The notes beneath the pieces were generated by a model that worked only from the letters and a program-made list of their open reading frames with translations, searched no databases and was not told where the DNA came from. From Reyranella sp. (GTDB taxonomy: Bacteria > Pseudomonadota > Alphaproteobacteria > Reyranellales > Reyranellaceae), in assembly GCF_004297405.1 (NCBI RefSeq), contig NZ_SCVC01000032.1, forward strand, positions 62,001-126,000: a stretch of DNA of 64,000 nt. The letters are read 5' to 3'. A program made the translations under genes and the position numbers. Positions within the stretch are counted from its first letter, which is position 1; each line of letters begins with the position of its first letter. Positions 7,270 through 63,343 of the stretch are shown here, piece by piece.

Positions 7270-8216
7270 CGCTCGACGCGCTCCGCAGCGCGGCCGGCAC
7301 GATGGGCGGCAAGCGAGCGCTGGCCGCCGCGCTGGCCGGCCTGGAGCGCGATCCCGACGGCGAGGCGGCACAGGCGCTGCTCGATGCGGCCTGGCGCGAG
7401 CCACGGGCGCACGTCGTGGGCGTTACGGGCCCACCGGGGGTCGGCAAATCCTCACTCTGCGCGGCATTGGTCGCCGCCTGGCGGCGTGACGGCAAGACCG
7501 TCGGCGTGATCGCCGTGGATCCCTCCTCGCGTGCCAGCGGCGGTGCGCTGTTGGGAGACAGGGTGCGGATCGTCCACGACAGCGCCGATGCCGGCAGCTT
7601 CGTGCGCTCGATGGCGGCGCGCGATCGGCTGGGCGGGCTCGCCGACCAGACCTTGGCGGCCATGGTGGTGATGCGCGCCCTGTTCGACCGCGTGCTGATC
7701 GAGACGGTGGGGGTCGGCCAGTCAGAAACCGACGTGGCTGGCGTTGCCGATACGGTCGTGTTCTGCGTCCAGCCCGGCTCGGGCGATTCGCTTCAGTTCA
7801 TGAAGGCGGGCATCGTCGAGATCCCGCACCTGATCGCCGTTACCAAGGCCGATCTCGGTGCCGCGGCGGAGCGGGCGCGGGCCGACGTGGCGGGCGCTCT
7901 GTCGCTTGCCGCTGGCGGCGAGGGGGACGACTGGCCGGTGAAGGCGCTGGCCGTTTCCTCCCGCAGCAGCGTGGGCATGACGGGCTTGATGGATGCGCTC
8001 GATGCCCATCGCGCCCACATGGCGGAGGACGGCAGGCTCGTCGTGGCCCGCCACCGCCAGAGCGAGGGTTGGGTCGTCGAATCGCTGCGCGATCGGTTTG
8101 GCCGCGACGGCATTGCAAGACTGGGGCGGCTGGGCTTCGATCTCGCCCTGGCGCCGGGAGTGCAGCCGTTCCAACGGCTGCGTGAGTTGGGCGCCGCACT
8201 GGAGGCTTCACGATGA
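7266..8216 (+). CDS. meaB: MeaB/ArgK-type G3E P-loop GTPase
   Basis: Family members are GTPase chaperones that load and protect adenosylcobalamin on methylmalonyl-CoA mutase and related mutases. 316 residues. Seen: Walker [14 protein letters not shown] (about residues 52-64), [17 protein letters not shown], a GVGQSE switch region and the base-specificity motif VTKAD. The ATG overlaps the ppdK stop (ATGA). No mutase gene is nearby, so its partner is presumably elsewhere. The family call is firm; the specific partner (MeaB against IcmF-type mutases) is inferred. Confidence 0.88.
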
Positions 8217-8638
8217 CTCATCCGACCGATGGAAGCTGCATCTTCTGCAAGATCGTCGCGGGGCAGATCCCGTGCTTCAAGCTGCTGGAGGATGAGACCA
8301 CCATCGCCTTCATGGATATCAACCCGGTCAATCCCGGCCACGCACTGAGCGTGGCGAAGGGGCATTGGCCGACTGTCGACGTCATCCCGCCCGACGTGTT
8401 GAGCGCGGTCGCGAAGACGGCGCAACGCGTGGCGAAGGCGGTGGTCAGCGAGCTGAAGCCGGTCGGCGTGAACCTGTTGCAGGCCAATGGTGCGGGAGCT
8501 GGTCAGAGCGTGCCGCACCTGCATATTCACATCATGCCGCGACGCCCCAACGACGGGGCGACGCTCAACTGGGACTACAAGCCCGGCGACAAGGCCGAGA
8601 TCGAGGCAGTCTACAAGCGCCTGAAGGCCGTTCTCTAG
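8213..8638 (+). CDS. HIT-family nucleotide hydrolase
   Basis: 141-residue histidine-triad protein, probably a purine nucleoside phosphoramidase or dinucleoside polyphosphate hydrolase acting in the cytoplasm. Seen: CIFCKIVAGQIPC at the N-terminus, AFMDINPVNPGHALSV, and the triad HLHIHIMPR with His at residues 102, 104 and 106, the middle positions forming the active site. Length is typical of the HINT branch. Its ATG overlaps the meaB stop, so it is the last gene of the glyQ-glyS-ppdK-meaB run. Its stop codon lies in the left arm of a hairpin shared with the converging LysR gene. Confidence 0.9.
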   Translation: MTHPTDGSCIFCKIVAGQIPCFKLLEDETTIAFMDINPVNPGHALSVAKGHWPTVDVIPPDVLSAVAKTAQRVAKAVVSELKPVGVNLLQANGAGAGQSVPHLHIHIMPRRPNDGATLNWDYKPGDKAEIEAVYKRLKAVL

Positions 8639-8653
8639 CTCCTCGGGAGCTAG
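8635..8653. terminator. Hairpin shared by two converging genes
   Basis: Perfect 8-bp inverted repeat CTAGCTCC / GGAGCTAG with a 3-base loop. The TAG stop of the plus-strand HIT gene lies in the left arm and the TAG stop of the minus-strand LysR gene in the right arm. There is no T-run, so an intrinsic bidirectional terminator is plausible but not proven. Confidence 0.5.
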
Positions 8654-9618
8654 GCGGCCGCCATGGAGCTACTGCTGCTGCTGCGCGGCGTCGTGGAGAA
8701 CCACTCGCGCTCGTCCTGACGGAACTGGTCGCGCACGTAGTCGATCACGGTGCGAATGCGTGCACCCTTGTTCGTCTCTTCATGGCTGACCAGCCAGATA
8801 TCGCGCACGATCTTGAGGTCGATCGGCGCGGCGATCAGGTTCGACGACTTGGCGATATAGTCGGGGAAAACCGAGATGCCGTAGCCGGTCGTCACTGCTT
8901 CCATGGCCGCGTAAGACGAGTTCGTGCGCAACACCACCGACGGCGTACGCTCGACCACCTCGCTCCACGGCTTCATGGCCGGCAGGGCGTGCAGGGTGGT
9001 GTGGTCGACGATGTGATGCTCCCGCAGGTCCTCGAACTTCTGCGGCAGGCCGTACAGCTCGACATAGGAGGGGGCCGCGAAGATCGACATGTTCACCTGG
9101 CCCACCCGCGCCGCGACGAGCTGGTTGGACGTCGGGCGGAAGAAGCGGATGGCCAGATCGGCCTGGCGGGTGGCGAGGTCGAGTACCTGATCGCCCGCGA
9201 TCACCTGGACAATGATGTCCGGATGCGAACGGCGAAGCAGACCGAGGCGTGGCACCAGCCAGTGGGCCGCAATACCCTCGGTTGCGGCGATGCGGACGAT
9301 GCCGGCCATTTCCCGGTCGAGGCCGGCGAGGTGCCGCTCGATCGCCGTGGCGTTCGACATCATCGATTCGGCCTGGACCAGCACGCCGCGCGCCGCTGGA
9401 GTCACCTCCATGCCATGGCGATGGCGGTCGAACAGCTTGGCGCCCAGCCGACGCTCGAGCGCCTGAATGCGCCGGCCGACCGTCGTCTGCTTCGTATTCA
9501 GTTGCGTCGCAGCAGCACTGAAACTGCCCGTCTTTGCAACCGCGAGGAAGAAACGAACGTCATCCCAATCGCCGAGAATATTCGGCACCTTGGTCTTGCG
9601 AGTAGGAGGAGTATTCAT
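8650..9618 (-). CDS. LysR-family transcriptional regulator
   Basis: 322 residues, typical LysR length. Seen: an N-terminal winged helix-turn-helix (DVRFFLAVAKTGSFSAAATQL through VGRRIQALERRLGAKLFDR, about residues 19-65), then a type-2 periplasmic-binding-like effector domain (about 95-300). A short C-terminal Ser/Ala tail is unusual. LysR proteins often control a divergent neighbour; here that is the fusion gene at 9858, across 239 bases. An AACAA-N15-TTGTT inverted repeat lies directly before its start. Effector unknown. Confidence 0.9.
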   Translation of the reverse strand: MNTPPTRKTKVPNILGDWDDVRFFLAVAKTGSFSAAATQLNTKQTTVGRRIQALERRLGAKLFDRHRHGMEVTPAARGVLVQAESMMSNATAIERHLAGLDREMAGIVRIAATEGIAAHWLVPRLGLLRRSHPDIIVQVIAGDQVLDLATRQADLAIRFFRPTSNQLVAARVGQVNMSIFAAPSYVELYGLPQKFEDLREHHIVDHTTLHALPAMKPWSEVVERTPSVVLRTNSSYAAMEAVTTGYGISVFPDYIAKSSNLIAAPIDLKIVRDIWLVSHEETNKGARIRTVIDYVRDQFRQDEREWFSTTPRSSSSSSMAAA

Positions 9619-9857
9619 CGTAACAATCGATACAATAAAGGTTGTTGGCCCAAAGTTTACTTGACGGAGGCCTCATGGTTTATCCTACACCATTATTGGT
9701 GAAATGTCGTTTTCTGTCTCTTTCTAGGGGAATAGACGGTTTCTTTCGTGAACCGCACAGGACCTGCATACCCTCTTTAGTGTATATATTCGTTAGTCAA
9801 TCTACCGGTTGTGCGTTTCGCGATTGACGCTTCGTAACGAGCCTAGGGGCTGCAGCC
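9619..9857. promoter_or_regulatory. AT-rich divergent intergenic region
   Basis: 239 bases clearly richer in A/T than their surroundings, between the LysR gene and the fusion gene at 9858. Seen: AACAA (9622-9626) mirrored by TTGTT (9642-9646), close to the LysR start and a possible autoregulatory site; a TATATT (9785-9790) that could be a -10 element for the plus-strand operon, without a clear -35; and a GGAGG (9667-9670 region) before an ATG at 9675 opening a 50-codon frame that I do not count as a gene. It probably holds both divergent promoters. Confidence 0.4.
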
Positions 9858-11141
9858 GTGACCGGCTCAGGCAGACAGACGACGCCGGCGCTTGCCGGCA
9901 AGATTCGCCGCTACGTGCGCAGTCCATCGACGCGCATGGCAGCGTTCGGCGGCCTATTGACATATCTCAGCTATGCATATGCGCACGGCAGTTGGACTAA
10001 CCCGACGCTGATCTGCGTGTCAGTCTTCGTCGGGGCGTTTCTGCCGAGCTACGCCAAGCTCAGTAACAAAGCTGAACTATGGGCCAACAATCAGTTCGGC
10101 TTTGTAACGGCTGGCCGGCTCGGGCGGTTTCTCCCGCAATTGGCGTTCAACTTGGTGATGTTCTGGTTGATGCTATGGGGAGGCGCGCTCAATCAACTGG
10201 GTATTTCGTCGGTCGGCGGCTTCGCTGGCGCGGCGCTCGTTACTACGCTCGCCTCACAGGGTACGCAGTTTCTCGGCGGCTACTTCGTCGCGCGCGGTGT
10301 GGGCGATGCCAACCGCAACACGCTGGTCGGGCTTCTGGTCAACGTCACCCTGGCTGCGTTGGGAACGGCGGGCGTGCCTTATGCCCGGGAGGCCTTCCTG
10401 ATCGTGGGCTTTGTCCTCGGCGGGCTCTTTTTCGGCATCGGTCTCCTCTCGGACATTCGCTCCAAGGTCGCGCCCAAGGGCGGGATCGGGATGTACTTCG
10501 GCACCTTCAATCCGTTCCACAACACGCATCTCGCGATGCTGGAGCGGGTCATCCGGGAGCGCAAGCTGGACAAGGTGATCATCCATCCCGTCTTGGTTCC
10601 CAAGCTGCATGTCGACGCCTTCCGCGATGGCCATCTCCGGGTCGGCCGGCTGGAAGGCGGGTTCCAGGTCTACGAGAAGACGGACAAGGCCGATTCCAAC
10701 GTCGATTACTTTCCGACCGGCAACAAGTTCCTGCCGCCCGAGACACGCAAGGCGCTGATCGAACTGGCGGTTGCCGAAGGTGGCCTCAGCGACAAGATCG
10801 AGGTGGCCTTCTATCCCGAGATCTACAACACCAAGGGCTTCCAGGGCGTCATCGCCGAGATCAAGCGGCGATATCCCGACACGCGACTGCATGCGCCGCA
10901 CGGCACCGACTTTGGTGGGATGCTGGTGCGCCAGATCGTCGACGAGTGTGGTTGGATTTATCCGTGGTGCATCCTGCGCCGCGACAATGTTTCCGCGACT
11001 GCCATCCGCAAGGGTGCCAAGGGCATGACGTCAGGTGTGGTGACCGACGTGCTCGAGCAGCTTTCGCAGAACCCTCCGGCGGTGACGGTTGGGGGCCGTC
11101 GCTTCCGGAACGACAACGGAGTTTTGACCGAGGGGGACTAA
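9858..11141 (+). CDS. Membrane protein fused to a cytidylyltransferase-like domain
   Basis: 427 residues, no named family recognised for the whole protein. Residues 1-200 carry about six hydrophobic segments (roughly 27-42, 49-64, 93-110, 118-145, 156-172, 179-197). The rest looks like a nucleotidyltransferase of the HxGH superfamily (NadD/CoaD/choline-phosphate type): MYFGTFNPFHNTHLAM at 212-227 with His 221 and His 224, and an ISSTxIR-like NVSATAIRKG at 377-386. The usual Gly of HxGH is Thr here. Such enzymes transfer a nucleotide to a phosphorylated or carboxyl substrate; the substrate cannot be read from sequence. The start is a GTG at 9858. Two bases separate its stop from the first of two GNAT genes, so the three probably act together, perhaps on a lipid or surface compound (inference). 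Confidence 0.75.
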   Translation: MTGSGRQTTPALAGKIRRYVRSPSTRMAAFGGLLTYLSYAYAHGSWTNPTLICVSVFVGAFLPSYAKLSNKAELWANNQFGFVTAGRLGRFLPQLAFNLVMFWLMLWGGALNQLGISSVGGFAGAALVTTLASQGTQFLGGYFVARGVGDANRNTLVGLLVNVTLAALGTAGVPYAREAFLIVGFVLGGLFFGIGLLSDIRSKVAPKGGIGMYFGTFNPFHNTHLAMLERVIRERKLDKVIIHPVLVPKLHVDAFRDGHLRVGRLEGGFQVYEKTDKADSNVDYFPTGNKFLPPETRKALIELAVAEGGLSDKIEVAFYPEIYNTKGFQGVIAEIKRRYPDTRLHAPHGTDFGGMLVRQIVDECGWIYPWCILRRDNVSATAIRKGAKGMTSGVVTDVLEQLSQNPPAVTVGGRRFRNDNGVLTEGD

Positions 11142-11142
11142 C

Positions 11143-11760
11143 ATGACTGTGCAAGCGACGACGGCTCCGAGCAACCGGCCCGTCATTACGATCAAGCTCG
11201 CGTCCACATCCGACGAGCTCATGCAATGCTATATGCTCCGTGCTGCCGTCTTCATGGGCGAACAAGCCTGCCCATACTGGGAAGAGTATGACGGCAACGA
11301 CTATTCGGCGAGCCATCTCATGCTCTACGTCGACGGCGAACCGGCGGCGTCGATGCGCGTACGCTGGTTCTCGGGCTTCGCCAAGCTGGAACGCGCTGTC
11401 ATCCTGAAGCGCTATCGCTCCTATGGCCTGTTCATTCCGTTCGTGCAGTGGGCCAAGGAATTCTGCCGCAAGAAGGGCTATCCCAAGGCCTACCTGCACG
11501 GCCAGCGGCGGCTGTGGGAGATTTTCGAGCGCGACGGCTTCCGTCGGGTCGGCGAAATCTTCCATTTCTCAGACCATGAGTACGGCGCCTTCGTCTGCGA
11601 CCTGGAGGTCGACGAGAAGACCCAGCCCACGGTGCTCACGGATCCCATGGTGCTGAACCGGCCAGAGGACCGGCTCGACATGAAGGGCATCCTTGAAGAA
11701 TCGATGGATCGGGGAGCGTCCAATCCGCATGCGGAATGGACCGAGCGTCGCGCGAGCTGA
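11143..11760 (+). CDS. GNAT-fold N-acyltransferase, paralogue 1
   Basis: 205 residues. Seen: an RAAVFMGEQACPYWEEYDGND region, a central strand LYVDGEPAASMRVRW that matches GNAT motif D/A architecture, an FERDGFRRVGE motif-B-like segment, and a C-terminal extension of about 40 residues absent from its neighbour. It is clearly homologous to the next gene (shared DGxDxxAxH and MRVRWFxxFA/VRVRWFxxFA positions), so the pair arose by tandem duplication. The canonical acetyl-CoA loop (Q/RxxGxG/A) is poor, RYRSYGL standing in its place, so activity or donor may differ. ATG at 11143, two bases after the previous stop, with an AGGGGGA ribosome site. Confidence 0.72.
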   Translation: MTVQATTAPSNRPVITIKLASTSDELMQCYMLRAAVFMGEQACPYWEEYDGNDYSASHLMLYVDGEPAASMRVRWFSGFAKLERAVILKRYRSYGLFIPFVQWAKEFCRKKGYPKAYLHGQRRLWEIFERDGFRRVGEIFHFSDHEYGAFVCDLEVDEKTQPTVLTDPMVLNRPEDRLDMKGILEESMDRGASNPHAEWTERRAS

Positions 11761-11773
11761 GGGAGAGATTATC

Positions 11774-12343
11774 ATGAGCACCACTTCACAATCGATCGGC
11801 GGCCTGGCCGTCACCACGAAGCTCGCGATGAAGATGGAGGACTCCCTGCAGGCCTTCGCCGTCCGGGCAGCCTGCTTCATCGGCGAACTGGACGTGCCGT
11901 ACTCCGAGGAGTTCGACGGCCACGATTTCGGCGCGACGCATATCATCGCCTATGTCGGGGACGAGCCGGTCGGCGCAGTGCGCGTACGCTGGTTCAAGTC
12001 CTTCGCCATGCCGGAACGTCTGGCCGTCATCCAGCGGTTCCGCGGCAACGGTGTCGCCCAGCTTCTGCTGGAGCGCTGCCGCAAGCTCGCCGAGACCCGG
12101 GGCGCCGAGAAGCTCTACGTCCAGGTCCTGCCGCAGGACGCGAAGCACTGGGAAAAGCAGGGCTGGCGTCGCCTCGAAGCCGAGGACGCTGGTTCGAGCC
12201 CGAAGCAGGTCGTCGCAATGATCCGCGCCGTCGACCCCAGCAAGCCGCTGCCCGAGGCCGACGATGCCCCGGAGTCGGTCGTGCTGCGCCGCGACCAGCA
12301 GGCCGATGGCTCGGTCGTGCCGATGAGGTCGGCGAGCCGCTGA
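11774..12343 (+). CDS. GNAT-fold N-acyltransferase, paralogue 2
   Basis: 189 residues counted from the ATG at 11774, which has a GGGAGAG ribosome site. Seen: the acetyl-CoA binding loop QRFRGNGVAQLLLE (R-x-x-G-x-G/A), the preceding strand VGAVRVRWFKSF, and a terminal HWEKQGWRRLEAE segment typical of GNAT motif B. Shares its N-terminal half with the gene before it but keeps a more canonical CoA loop, so it is the likelier active acyltransferase of the pair. Last gene of the unit that begins at 9858; a hairpin follows at once. Confidence 0.8.
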   Translation: MSTTSQSIGGLAVTTKLAMKMEDSLQAFAVRAACFIGELDVPYSEEFDGHDFGATHIIAYVGDEPVGAVRVRWFKSFAMPERLAVIQRFRGNGVAQLLLERCRKLAETRGAEKLYVQVLPQDAKHWEKQGWRRLEAEDAGSSPKQVVAMIRAVDPSKPLPEADDAPESVVLRRDQQADGSVVPMRSASR

Positions 12344-12362
12344 CGCCGCCGATCTGGTGGCG
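12344..12362. terminator. Hairpin between converging genes
   Basis: CGCCGCC (12344-12350) pairs with GGTGGCG (12356-12362) over a 5-base loop, seven pairs with one G-U. It fills the gap between the second GNAT stop and the stop of the minus-strand permease. No T-run follows; a two-way terminator is likely but not certain. Confidence 0.4.
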
Positions 12363-12366
12363 ATAC

Positions 12367-13254
12367 CTACTTGTGGCGGGGGTCCAGCGCGTCGCGCAGG
12401 CCGTCGCCCAGTAGGTTGAATGACAAGACGGCCAGGAAGATTGCGACGCCTGGCCAGAAGGCCATCCACGGCGCCTGCGCGATGAAGCGCTGCGCCGAAT
12501 TGAGCATGCTGCCCCAGGAGGGCGCCGGTGGCTGCTGGCCGAGGCCAAGGAACGAGAGAGCGGCCTCGGCGATGATGGCGCCGGCGATGGCGAGCGACGC
12601 CTGTACCAGGAGCGGCGGCACGATGTTGGGCAGCACATGGCGCAGGGCGATGCGCCAGTGCGGATTGCCGACTGCGCGCGCGGCTTCGACATAGTCCTCG
12701 ACCTTGGCAGCAATGGTCTGCCCGCGCGTCAGGCGGATGAAGACCGGCGTGGCGGTGACGCCGATGGCGATCATCGCATTGCTGAGGCTGGGGCCGAGGA
12801 AGGCCGCGAGGGCGATGGCCAGGATCAAGAAGGGGATGGCGAGCATGGCGTCGACGATGCGCGACAGCAGCGCATCGACCCAGCCACCGGCATAGCCCGC
12901 GAGCAGGCCGAGGGGGACGCCGAAGGCCAGCGCGATACCGACCGAAACCAGACCGGCGCTGAGTGACGCCCGAGCACCCCAGATGATGCGGGAGAGCACG
13001 TCCCGGCCGACCTCGTCGGTGCCCAGCCAATGCGCCCACGATGGTGCCTTGCGGACTGCGCTCCAGCTCGTGGCGATCGGGTCGTAGGGCGCGACCAGCG
13101 GTGCGGCCACGGCCAGCAGCACGAAGAGGAGCACGATGACCAGTCCGACCATGGCTCCCTTGCGTCGGCGCAGCCGCCGCCAGGCGCGCCCCCAGGGATT
13201 CTCCTCGCGGGCATCGGTGGCTGCGGTCGCAGGGGAGAGCGTGGTGGCGGTCAT
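12367..13254 (-). CDS. Oligopeptide-type ABC transporter permease (DppC-like)
   Basis: 295-residue inner-membrane permease of the peptide/nickel/opine ABC class. Seen: a cytoplasmic N-terminal stretch with RRRKGAMVGLVIVLLFV as the first transmembrane helix, the DppC-type N-terminal APYDPIA and GTDEVGRDVLSRIIWGAR region, and the EAA coupling loop (VEAARAVGNPHWRIALRHVLPN) that contacts the ATPases. The ATG at 13254 overlaps the stop of the partner permease (ATGA); translation upstream of it would run inside that gene. Last gene of the minus-strand transport operon. Confidence 0.92.
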   Translation of the reverse strand: MTATTLSPATAATDAREENPWGRAWRRLRRRKGAMVGLVIVLLFVLLAVAAPLVAPYDPIATSWSAVRKAPSWAHWLGTDEVGRDVLSRIIWGARASLSAGLVSVGIALAFGVPLGLLAGYAGGWVDALLSRIVDAMLAIPFLILAIALAAFLGPSLSNAMIAIGVTATPVFIRLTRGQTIAAKVEDYVEAARAVGNPHWRIALRHVLPNIVPPLLVQASLAIAGAIIAEAALSFLGLGQQPPAPSWGSMLNSAQRFIAQAPWMAFWPGVAIFLAVLSFNLLGDGLRDALDPRHK

Positions 13255-62752: not shown

Positions 62753-63343
62753 ATGGCAATGACCATGCTGCAAATGTCGGGTGTGCAACCTGCGCCGGCC
62801 ACGACGGCCGATGGCGTTCTGCTGATTATCGATGCGCAAAGAGAATATACGGACGGCCTACTGCCGCTCGCCGGTGTCCAGCCAGCCGTCGAGGCATTGG
62901 CCGTTCTATTGGAAAAGGCCCGAGCAGCAGGCACTCCGGTGGTCCATGTTCGTCACCAATCGAAGGGCAAGGCGTTCAACCCGTCGTCGACCGGCTACGA
63001 GATCGTGAAGGAACTGACACCGCGGACCGGAGAAACAATCATCGACAAGGGATTGCCCAATTCTTTCGCTGGCACCGATCTCGCCAAGCATCTGACGGCG
63101 CTCGGTCGCAAGAACCTGCTGGTGGGTGGCTTCATGACCCACATGTGCGTTTCCGCGACGGTACGGTCCGCGACTGACCATGGATACATGTGCACTATTG
63201 CCGCCGACACGGTCGCGACGCGCGACCTGCCCGATGCCATGGGCAACGGCACGGTGACGGCTGACGCGCTCAACAAGATCACGCTCGCGGCGCTGTCCGA
63301 CCGCTTTGCCTGGATCGTTCCGGCGGCCACGAAGATCGTCTGA
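62753..63343 (+). CDS. Isochorismatase-like cysteine hydrolase
   Basis: 196 residues. Seen: catalytic triad residues Asp 27 (LLIIDAQREY), Lys 99 (IIDKGLPNSFAGTDL) and Cys 132 (GGFMTHMCVSATVRSA). This set and the fold fit nicotinamidase/isochorismatase-type hydrolases, which cleave amides or vinyl ethers. The MTHMCV segment around the Cys resembles the amide-hydrolysing group. Substrate unknown. GGGGG ribosome site before ATG 62753. A tandem hairpin follows. Confidence 0.88.
   Translation: MAMTMLQMSGVQPAPATTADGVLLIIDAQREYTDGLLPLAGVQPAVEALAVLLEKARAAGTPVVHVRHQSKGKAFNPSSTGYEIVKELTPRTGETIIDKGLPNSFAGTDLAKHLTALGRKNLLVGGFMTHMCVSATVRSATDHGYMCTIAADTVATRDLPDAMGNGTVTADALNKITLAALSDRFAWIVPAATKIV

Follow-up and report, generated by a model that had tools for sequence, protein, structure and literature searches.

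A fused membrane domain-nucleotidyltransferase of Reyranella and its GNAT partners: a putative membrane-face unit under LysR control

The window analysed here, a stretch of 64,000 nucleotides from a 6.46 Mb Reyranella genome, encodes a 427-residue fusion protein (9858-11141, + strand) in which a six-helix membrane domain is joined to a nucleotidyltransferase with the altered signature HxTH. Two genes of the GNAT family follow on the same strand, GNAT1 (11143-11760, +; 205 aa) and GNAT2 (11774-12343, +; 189 aa), and a gene for a LysR-type regulator is divergent from them (8650-9618, - strand; PF03466 113 bits, PF00126 75 bits). As judged from the loci compared, the core of this unit is the fusion plus one GNAT, with LysR added in alphaproteobacteria, and it is retained in different genomic settings, the fusion-GNAT pair recurring in seven distant loci with differing flanks. 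We propose tentatively, with a probability of about 0.4, that these genes form a LysR-controlled unit at the membrane face that would nucleotidylate and N-acylate an amphipathic, membrane-held substrate. The comparison defines a family of fused enzymes in which the catalytic signature is altered to HxT/SH, the membrane domain is unclassified and the partners are kept across phyla; since the set is kept together in unrelated bacteria, it probably makes one compound. If a membrane-held substrate is indeed nucleotidylated, the fold would, to our knowledge, be performing a reaction not previously ascribed to it.

An original prediction made from the letters alone had described the locus as a three-gene unit: a six-helix membrane domain joined to an HxGH-type nucleotidyltransferase, two GNAT genes two and 13 bases further on, and a divergent LysR gene. 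Its coordinates for the three genes and its placing of LysR were right, and the AlphaFold model agrees with the domain order; the 13-base gap between GNAT1 and GNAT2 is also correct, whereas the gap between the fusion and GNAT1 is 1 base. No terminator-like site was found within 9500-12500, which fits a single transcript as far as the sequence can indicate. The prediction knew of no named system with this set, and no description of one was found here either in the open-licence literature searched (titles and abstract starts). We class the fusion as a new subfamily within a known enzyme superfamily, carrying a membrane domain that is unclassified; the unit as a whole matches no named system found.

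Linkage and distribution of the unit

Sixty loci carrying the fusion were collected by a peptide-pattern scan of genome contigs, which covers close relatives only, and 54 of them have the order fusion-GNAT1-GNAT2. The arrangement is not chance. Two of the remaining six lie on contigs that end early (L008, L055), two lack GNAT1 after the fusion (L048, L053) and two, from Salinispora and Megamonas, have a single GNAT. L048 keeps GNAT2, and L053 looks alike, although its contig ends within about 200 bases, soon after GNAT2. Linkage within Reyranella alone proves little because synteny is general across the genus, the near flanking genes also being present in at least 40 of the 60 loci. The closest relatives found at the locus are an alphaproteobacterial metagenome-assembled genome (L002; 94% identity in the fusion) and Reyranella massiliensis 521 (L003; 92%). 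Ratios of nonsynonymous to synonymous substitution rates (dN/dS) between the window and eight chosen relatives were 0.09-0.22 for the fusion, 0.07-0.26 for GNAT1, 0.09-0.33 for GNAT2 and 0.01-0.15 for LysR, so that all four genes look to be under purifying selection.

Evidence from beyond the genus comes from seven distant loci, namely Salinispora vitiensis (L057), Megamonas sp. UBA1796 (L058) and five from other alphaproteobacteria (L135-L138 and L148), in which the fusion shares 44-54% identity with that of the window. The question raised with the original prediction, whether homologues elsewhere would prove unlinked, was looked at, and a GNAT gene adjoins the fusion in all seven; LysR is present in the five alphaproteobacterial loci. 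Apart from LysR, the fusion and the GNATs, the window's genes at 1.6-26 kb had matches in the distant loci only to a TauD-family gene about 6.5 kb from the unit in L138 (37%, E 1e-41) and to ABC-transporter ATPases in L136, L137 and L138. These count against a clean claim that the flanks differ, although both belong to large families and we take them as chance neighbours. The predicted trio stands in 54 of 60 loci, but the core is the fusion with one GNAT, and no locus outside the Reyranella lineage was seen to carry GNAT2.

The slot occupied by GNAT2 in Reyranella is variable elsewhere. An isochorismatase-family gene follows the GNAT in four of the five other alphaproteobacterial loci (L136, L137 and L148, which are from one family, and L138, from another) and is missing from L135; the assignment was made by Pfam (PF00857) for L137 only. 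By reading, these four proteins keep the Cys and Lys, whereas the first acidic residue is Glu in two of them, Asp in one and Gly in one. None of the loci compared from Reyranella, Salinispora or Megamonas yielded the gene. About 50 kb from the unit, the window has a weak match to the L138 protein (62816-63253, +; 25%, E 9e-8).

The fusion was found in 58 of 61 Reyranella genomes, the three misses being 60%, 73% and 96% complete; a near-universal gene of this kind should matter to the cell. Outside the genus, full-length members appear to be rare in the samples searched. A class sample gave matches in nine of 385 genomes (E 1e-30), four of them from the window's genus and one of the other five to the membrane domain only. 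In one related order, four of 10 genomes matched (E 1e-6), one of these (G1735) with a contig-end fragment, and in a phylum sample the membrane domain matched two of 299 genomes (E 1e-6), both Reyranella. Phylum scans around Salinispora and Megamonas, in which scoring was confined to the top few candidates of each genome, gave matches at E<=0.001 in 90 of 396 and 37 of 299 genomes; the full-length protein occurred only in the two seed genomes, and the remaining 89 and 36 matches were short and lay at the nucleotidyltransferase motif. The seed families had the fusion in one of 150 and one of 151 genomes, respectively (E<=1e-30). Class and seed-family scans were cut at E 1e-30, and those of the order, of the membrane domain in the phylum and of the L139 family (below) at 1e-6, levels at which weaker relatives would be missed.

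Mobile elements and phage defence were considered as settings for the unit. The fusion had no tblastn match at E<=1e-5 in plasmid and phage collections; viral contigs gave four short matches, all in the nucleotidyltransferase part and none in the membrane domain, and on these searches plasmid or phage cargo was rejected. Phage family profiles gave weak cytidyltransferase and acetyltransferase matches only. A role in anti-phage defence was rejected, as PADLOC assigned none of its families to seven proteins at E<=0.001.

The two domains of the fusion protein

The AlphaFold model of the full fusion, built with 49 sequences, has a mean predicted local distance difference test score (pLDDT) of 85.0 and a predicted template modelling score (pTM) of 0.80. 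It shows six long helices within residues 23-203 and two short ones (12-21 and 113-117), followed by an alpha/beta domain from about residue 206. We divide the protein into a membrane domain (residues 13-203; 9894-10466, +) and a nucleotidyltransferase domain (residues 206-405; 10473-11072, +).

By VIA-align, the nucleotidyltransferase domain is closest to M. tuberculosis NadD (6buv_B; Z 14.6, root-mean-square deviation (rmsd) 2.5 over 157 residues), followed by an archaeal NMNAT (Z 13.7) and PPAT (Z 13.2). NadD is not singled out by fold, since PPAT is so close behind. The top Foldseek matches were also NadD (E 9e-5), and sequence searches likewise placed the nearest relatives among the adenylyltransferases of the NadD/NMNAT/PPAT branch. 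Pfam assigns the fusion to superfamily level only, its 25.1 bits for PF01467 exceeding the cut-off of 21, and the NCBIfam NadD equivalog, at best 26.5 bits against a cut-off of 197, was not reached. The name cytidylyltransferase used in the original prediction was thus a superfamily label: a cytidylyltransferase of a known pathway was rejected because the nearest relatives by both sequence and fold are adenylyltransferases, and the domain is better read as a nucleotidyltransferase of NadD/PPAT type, which does not imply a choice of nucleotide.

The predicted replacement of Gly by Thr in the HxGH loop is real, with HNTH at residues 221-224 (10518-10529, +), and it extends to the whole family. 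Both catalytic histidines are kept in 64 of 64 relatives read, and Gly is replaced by Thr or Ser in every one of them (59 read by pattern and five separately; L055 was left out for want of a complete reading frame). We regard this replacement as a family hallmark on the aligned motifs. The second motif that had been noticed is VSATAIR at residues 378-384 (10989-11009, +), the counterpart of the ISSTxIR motif, and its pattern [IV]S[AG]TA[IV]RxG is present in 63 of 64 relatives. The domain therefore shares with the NadD/NMNAT/PPAT superfamily its fold and its HxxH and TxxR motifs, and differs from it in the Thr/Ser substitution, in its pocket, in its fusion to a membrane domain and in its linkage to GNAT genes.

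The pocket was compared with the genome's own NadD at 24% identity, a level at which the alignment is uncertain. All six family members aligned have GFxx[VI] in place of YTxxT, L138 having the GFxxI form, and all six have Glu or Asp at the first Trp of DWxxW while retaining the second. In the pocket region the NadD loop gives way to an insert, some 37 alignment columns long, that includes the family-conserved Txx[AS]DxxVxYFP[TA]G. In NadD, YTxxT and a Trp bind nicotinate mononucleotide (NaMN). The genome has separate NadD-like, CoaD-like and RibF genes elsewhere, the NadD-like gene lying between an aldehyde-dehydrogenase-family gene (by reading, proA) before it and rsfS after it, and a housekeeping NadD role for the fusion was rejected on this account. 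With the pocket residues lost and these three genes present, the substrate of the fusion is probably not NaMN.

The membrane domain was not matched by any accepted Pfam, NCBIfam or PDB family. Modelled alone it reached a pLDDT of 89.3 and a pTM of 0.84, and it gave no Foldseek match at E<=0.001 and no PDB sequence match at E<=10. Pfam searches of 39 membrane domains returned scattered weak matches to 11 families at E<=10, including a phage holin family in eight (best E 0.021), PAP2 in two (best E 0.0011) and ALMT in one (E 0.37). Identity was judged from these match lists, and families absent from them may still apply. PAP2 was set aside because its catalysis requires a His and none is found among the invariant columns. 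The top VIA-align match, dolichyl-phosphate-mannose synthase 9ep0 (Z 6.3, rmsd 3.2, 104 residues), scores no higher than helical models may do by chance. A GtrA identity was rejected at an hhalign probability of 0.1%, with a GtrA profile of six related sequences.

When 13 diverse membrane domains, including a free-standing one, are aligned, the invariant columns include S57, N58, R75, R78, Q82, N86, S121, Q122, Q125, N142, N150 and D187 (numbered in the 191-aa membrane-domain fragment). From the positive-inside rule, we infer that the Arg-rich loops and the enzyme domain face the cytoplasm, which would put many invariant polar residues at or near that side, next to the catalytic domain. CDP-alcohol phosphotransferases carry a four-Asp motif, and with a single invariant Asp the domain does not fit them. 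The archaeal inositol-1-phosphate cytidylyltransferase/CDP-alcohol transferase and PntC fusions resemble the present protein in joining a nucleotidyltransferase to a head-group membrane domain. These fusions combine a GT-A type nucleotidyltransferase with the Asp-rich CDP-alcohol motif, whereas here the membrane domain has one invariant Asp and the nucleotidyltransferase is not of GT-A type.

The free-standing relative (L139) is a protein of 204 aa with 42% identity to the window's domain over 174 residues. It lies in a tight run of genes (L139 4555-9206) comprising mprF, an overlapping virJ/acvB-like gene and, 6 bases further on, the membrane domain. Because this copy has no nucleotidyltransferase and keeps the same invariant residues, these residues probably serve the membrane domain's own function. 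LpiA/MprF-AcvB is described as the lysyl-phosphatidylglycerol operon (PMC13197417). The resemblance consists in the placing of this relative directly behind mprF and the virJ/acvB-like gene in one genome, and no MprF or AcvB relative was seen at the Reyranella unit.

GNAT partners and the divergent LysR regulator

The homology of GNAT1 and GNAT2 that had been claimed holds, with 35% identity across 122 residues (E 5e-24). PF00583 was matched at E<=0.01 by 20 of 20 GNAT members; against its cut-off of 20.7 bits, GNAT2 of the window lies above (37.9 bits) and GNAT1 below (17.6 bits). In a tree of 116 sequences (119 reading frames, less four rows of L050 with runs of N and one row of L047, plus the two window proteins), GNAT2 occupies one side of a branch, with 55 rows and support of 100/100, and all GNAT1-type proteins, including those of Salinispora, Megamonas and other alphaproteobacteria, fall on the other; the tree is midpoint-rooted and two long branches (L135, L138) meet in it.

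The weakened coenzyme A (CoA) loop noted earlier in one GNAT is that of GNAT1, which reads RSYGLF and is degenerate against RxxGxG/A. Loops were read by pattern in 47 of 61 GNAT1-type rows and separately in some of the other 14. Every Reyranella-lineage loop read has lost the final Gly/Ala, as RSYGLF and similar or as RGLGxH, and decayed loops are also found in L135 (REGQVA), L136 and L137 (RRMSII) and L148 (RSMPII). The loop is intact in Salinispora (RGRGYG), Megamonas (RNNGYG) and L138 (RGTGIG). GNAT2 keeps RGxx[IV][GA] in all 41 rows read (14 of 55 were unread) and the full motif in 10. GNAT1-type proteins of different phyla share a conserved C-terminal tail, DPMxLxRPE. In the window this tail is DPMVLNRPEDRLD (11641-11679, +); its pattern occurs in 48 of 61 GNAT1-type rows and in none of 55 GNAT2 rows, and variants among the 13 rows missed by the pattern include EPMVLNRPEDRLD, PPLVLNRPEGRLD and, in Megamonas, NPLKLNQPEGRL. 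On these readings, the CoA loop of GNAT1 seems to have decayed in several lineages while the tail was kept. Purifying selection on GNAT1 (dN/dS 0.07-0.26) argues against a dying gene; the protein may be a partner subunit, or it may take its acyl group from some donor besides acyl-CoA.

The solved relatives of the Salinispora GNAT1 homologue (P0007) are SACOL1063 (E 8e-18), 1q2y and ElaA (E 5e-9), and the best NCBIfam match of the window's GNAT1 is PRK10314, which we take to be an ElaA-type model, at 22 bits and far under its cut-off of 171. GNAT1 differs from ElaA and SACOL1063 in its C-terminal tail past the aligned range, in the degenerate CoA loop of Reyranella and in its fixed fusion partner. 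A SACOL1063-like enzyme of A. baumannii is reported to acetylate Thr and other amino acids (PMC10267138). For GNAT2, the best NCBIfam match was the MSMEG_0567/Sll0786 nitrogen-starvation GNAT (TIGR04045; 32.6 bits, E 5e-8), under the cut-off of 68.45, with GNAT1 at 14.5 bits; the comparison is with this GNAT alone, not with its cluster. The FeeM N-acyl amino acid synthases, which are GNAT-like and use acyl-acyl carrier protein (acyl-ACP), were approached by some members. The L135 GNAT, with its decayed loop, just passes the PF21926 cut-off (27.4 against 27 bits), and L148 (22.7 bits), L137 (20.3 bits), P0008 and P0007 (17.2/16.9 bits) fall below it. Fifteen of the 20 members, both window GNATs included, had no PF21926 match at E<=0.01, and L135 and the other matching proteins score higher with ordinary GNAT families.

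Of the 60 loci, 52 have a homologue of LysR at E<=1e-20; six of those without one lie at contig edges, and the remaining two are the Salinispora and Megamonas loci. Five of five other alphaproteobacterial loci have a homologue at 39-50% identity. LysR was the slowest-evolving of the four proteins in each of the eight comparisons. The intergenic region between LysR and the unit (9619-9857) is conserved over 51 sequences (the window and 50 loci, with L050 and L056 left out), with several blocks in which 80-100% of rows equal the window. Pairwise identity was 0.53-0.84 in 12 chosen loci versus 0.51-0.54 in shuffles, with L048 no better than chance. A candidate regulator site, ACAATCGATACAAT (9623-9636, +), lies immediately upstream of the LysR start, and each of its 14 columns is equal in at least 90% of the 51 sequences. 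Exact copies of the form CAATCGATACAATA were present in 46 of 158 loci, a count in which some places figure more than once. The window has one exact copy of the element, against a chance expectation of 1.4 matches when up to 3 mismatches are allowed. No copy turned up in the five alphaproteobacterial regions that are more distant. LysR probably controls the unit.

A proposed membrane-face pathway and its rivals

In the pathway we favour, the six-helix domain would hold an amphipathic, phosphate-bearing substrate at the cytoplasmic leaflet, and the fused HxT/SH domain would place a nucleotide monophosphate on it, most likely adenosine monophosphate from adenosine triphosphate. The GNAT partner would acylate an amine of the substrate or of the product using acyl-CoA, or perhaps, where the CoA loop is decayed, another donor such as acyl-ACP. 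A further step, wherever in the order it falls, would be carried out by the second GNAT in most Reyranella and by the isochorismatase-family enzyme in some other alphaproteobacteria, and LysR would sense a metabolite of the pathway and so provide feedback.

This proposal draws on the adjoining GNAT in seven of seven distant loci whose flanks are unlike the window's, on LysR in the five alphaproteobacterial ones, on a NadD-type fold that keeps both catalytic histidines and the TxxR of VSATAIR, on invariant polar membrane residues of which many would lie at or near the cytoplasmic side and on the free-standing membrane domain behind mprF and a virJ/acvB-like gene, a lipid head-group system. The earlier idea of membrane-coupled nucleotide chemistry and GNAT partners acting as one unit is strengthened by its retention in unrelated genomic settings; amine acylation and the kind of product suggested there (lipid, quorum-type or surface) are putative. 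Several points weigh against the pathway. The substrate is wholly hypothetical, and the membrane domain has no recognised fold, which leaves its lipid-binding role putative. GNAT1, with a CoA loop that is not intact in Reyranella and several relatives, may not acylate, and neither the Salinispora nor the Megamonas locus has a LysR gene. The lipid link itself comes from one genome, as the membrane domain was not found at E<=1e-6 in the other 38 genomes of the L139 family (one of 39 overall). A bolder version, which we hold to be doubtful, is that the six-helix domain is a new membrane domain for handling lipid head groups, working alone beside lysyl-phosphatidylglycerol genes and, when fused, as the core of a pathway whose product, a lipid or lipid-like signal that is N-acylated and capped with a nucleotide, LysR would sense.

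A membrane domain that transports a small metabolite, with the fused enzyme trapping it as a nucleotide adduct, would account for a compact helical domain with conserved polar residues inside it and an NMNAT-type partner. PnuC and the NMN-adenylyltransferase NadR take up and trap nicotinamide riboside in this manner, a membrane protein again working with an NMNAT-type domain. No sequence relation between the two membrane domains was detected, however: PnuC had no Pfam match among the 39 membrane domains, the one transporter family listed was ALMT, in one of 39 at E 0.37, and hhalign with E. coli PnuC gave a probability of 0.2% (a weak test, with one PnuC sequence). A nucleotidyltransferase of this type also requires a phosphorylated acceptor, and no kinase gene was seen in the unit. 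We therefore consider uptake by trapping unlikely. A side pathway of pyridine nucleotides, with the NadD-like enzyme working beside a hydrolase of nicotinamidase type to produce or recover an uncommon dinucleotide of the nicotinamide adenine dinucleotide type, has in its favour that both sequence and fold place NadD nearest to the enzyme, that the second Trp of DWxxW is kept and that the hydrolase gene of four relatives belongs, by the L137 match, to a nicotinamidase-containing family with Cys and Lys kept. It is nevertheless quite unlikely in our view, given the replaced YTxxT and first Trp and the insert in the pocket (with the alignment uncertainty already mentioned), the normal NadD, CoaD and RibF elsewhere in the genome, the variable first catalytic acid of the hydrolase and its absence from the Reyranella, Salinispora and Megamonas loci compared.

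The kept tail and degenerate loop of GNAT1, together with its low dN/dS, could also reflect a pseudoenzyme that docks through the tail and controls the nucleotidyltransferase, or a nucleotidyltransferase that modifies a protein, with no small product in either case. The intact loops in Salinispora, Megamonas and L138 suggest, however, that the common form can probably bind CoA, and L048 (like L053, with its early contig end) retains GNAT2 without GNAT1; a regulatory pair seems distinctly unlikely to us. That the genes are mere neighbours in Reyranella by common descent, without a shared pathway, agrees with the synteny of the whole region within the genus. It is highly improbable and largely refuted for the fusion and its GNAT by the pair's presence in seven loci whose flanks differ and which include two from other phyla; we make no such claim for GNAT2.

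Two neighbourhoods deserve mention beside the membrane-face proposal. A HIT-family gene (8213-8638, +; PF01230 85 bits) is convergent with the LysR gene of the window. HIT proteins cleave nucleotide adducts; as no homologue was seen at E<=1e-8 in the seven distant loci, no link to the unit is claimed. The Salinispora vitiensis pair was possibly acquired by transfer, the fusion being absent from the other 149 genomes of its family searched (E<=1e-30), and about 2.5 kb past this pair lie a family-2 glycosyltransferase gene and a GntR/UTRA gene (L057 12432-14079).

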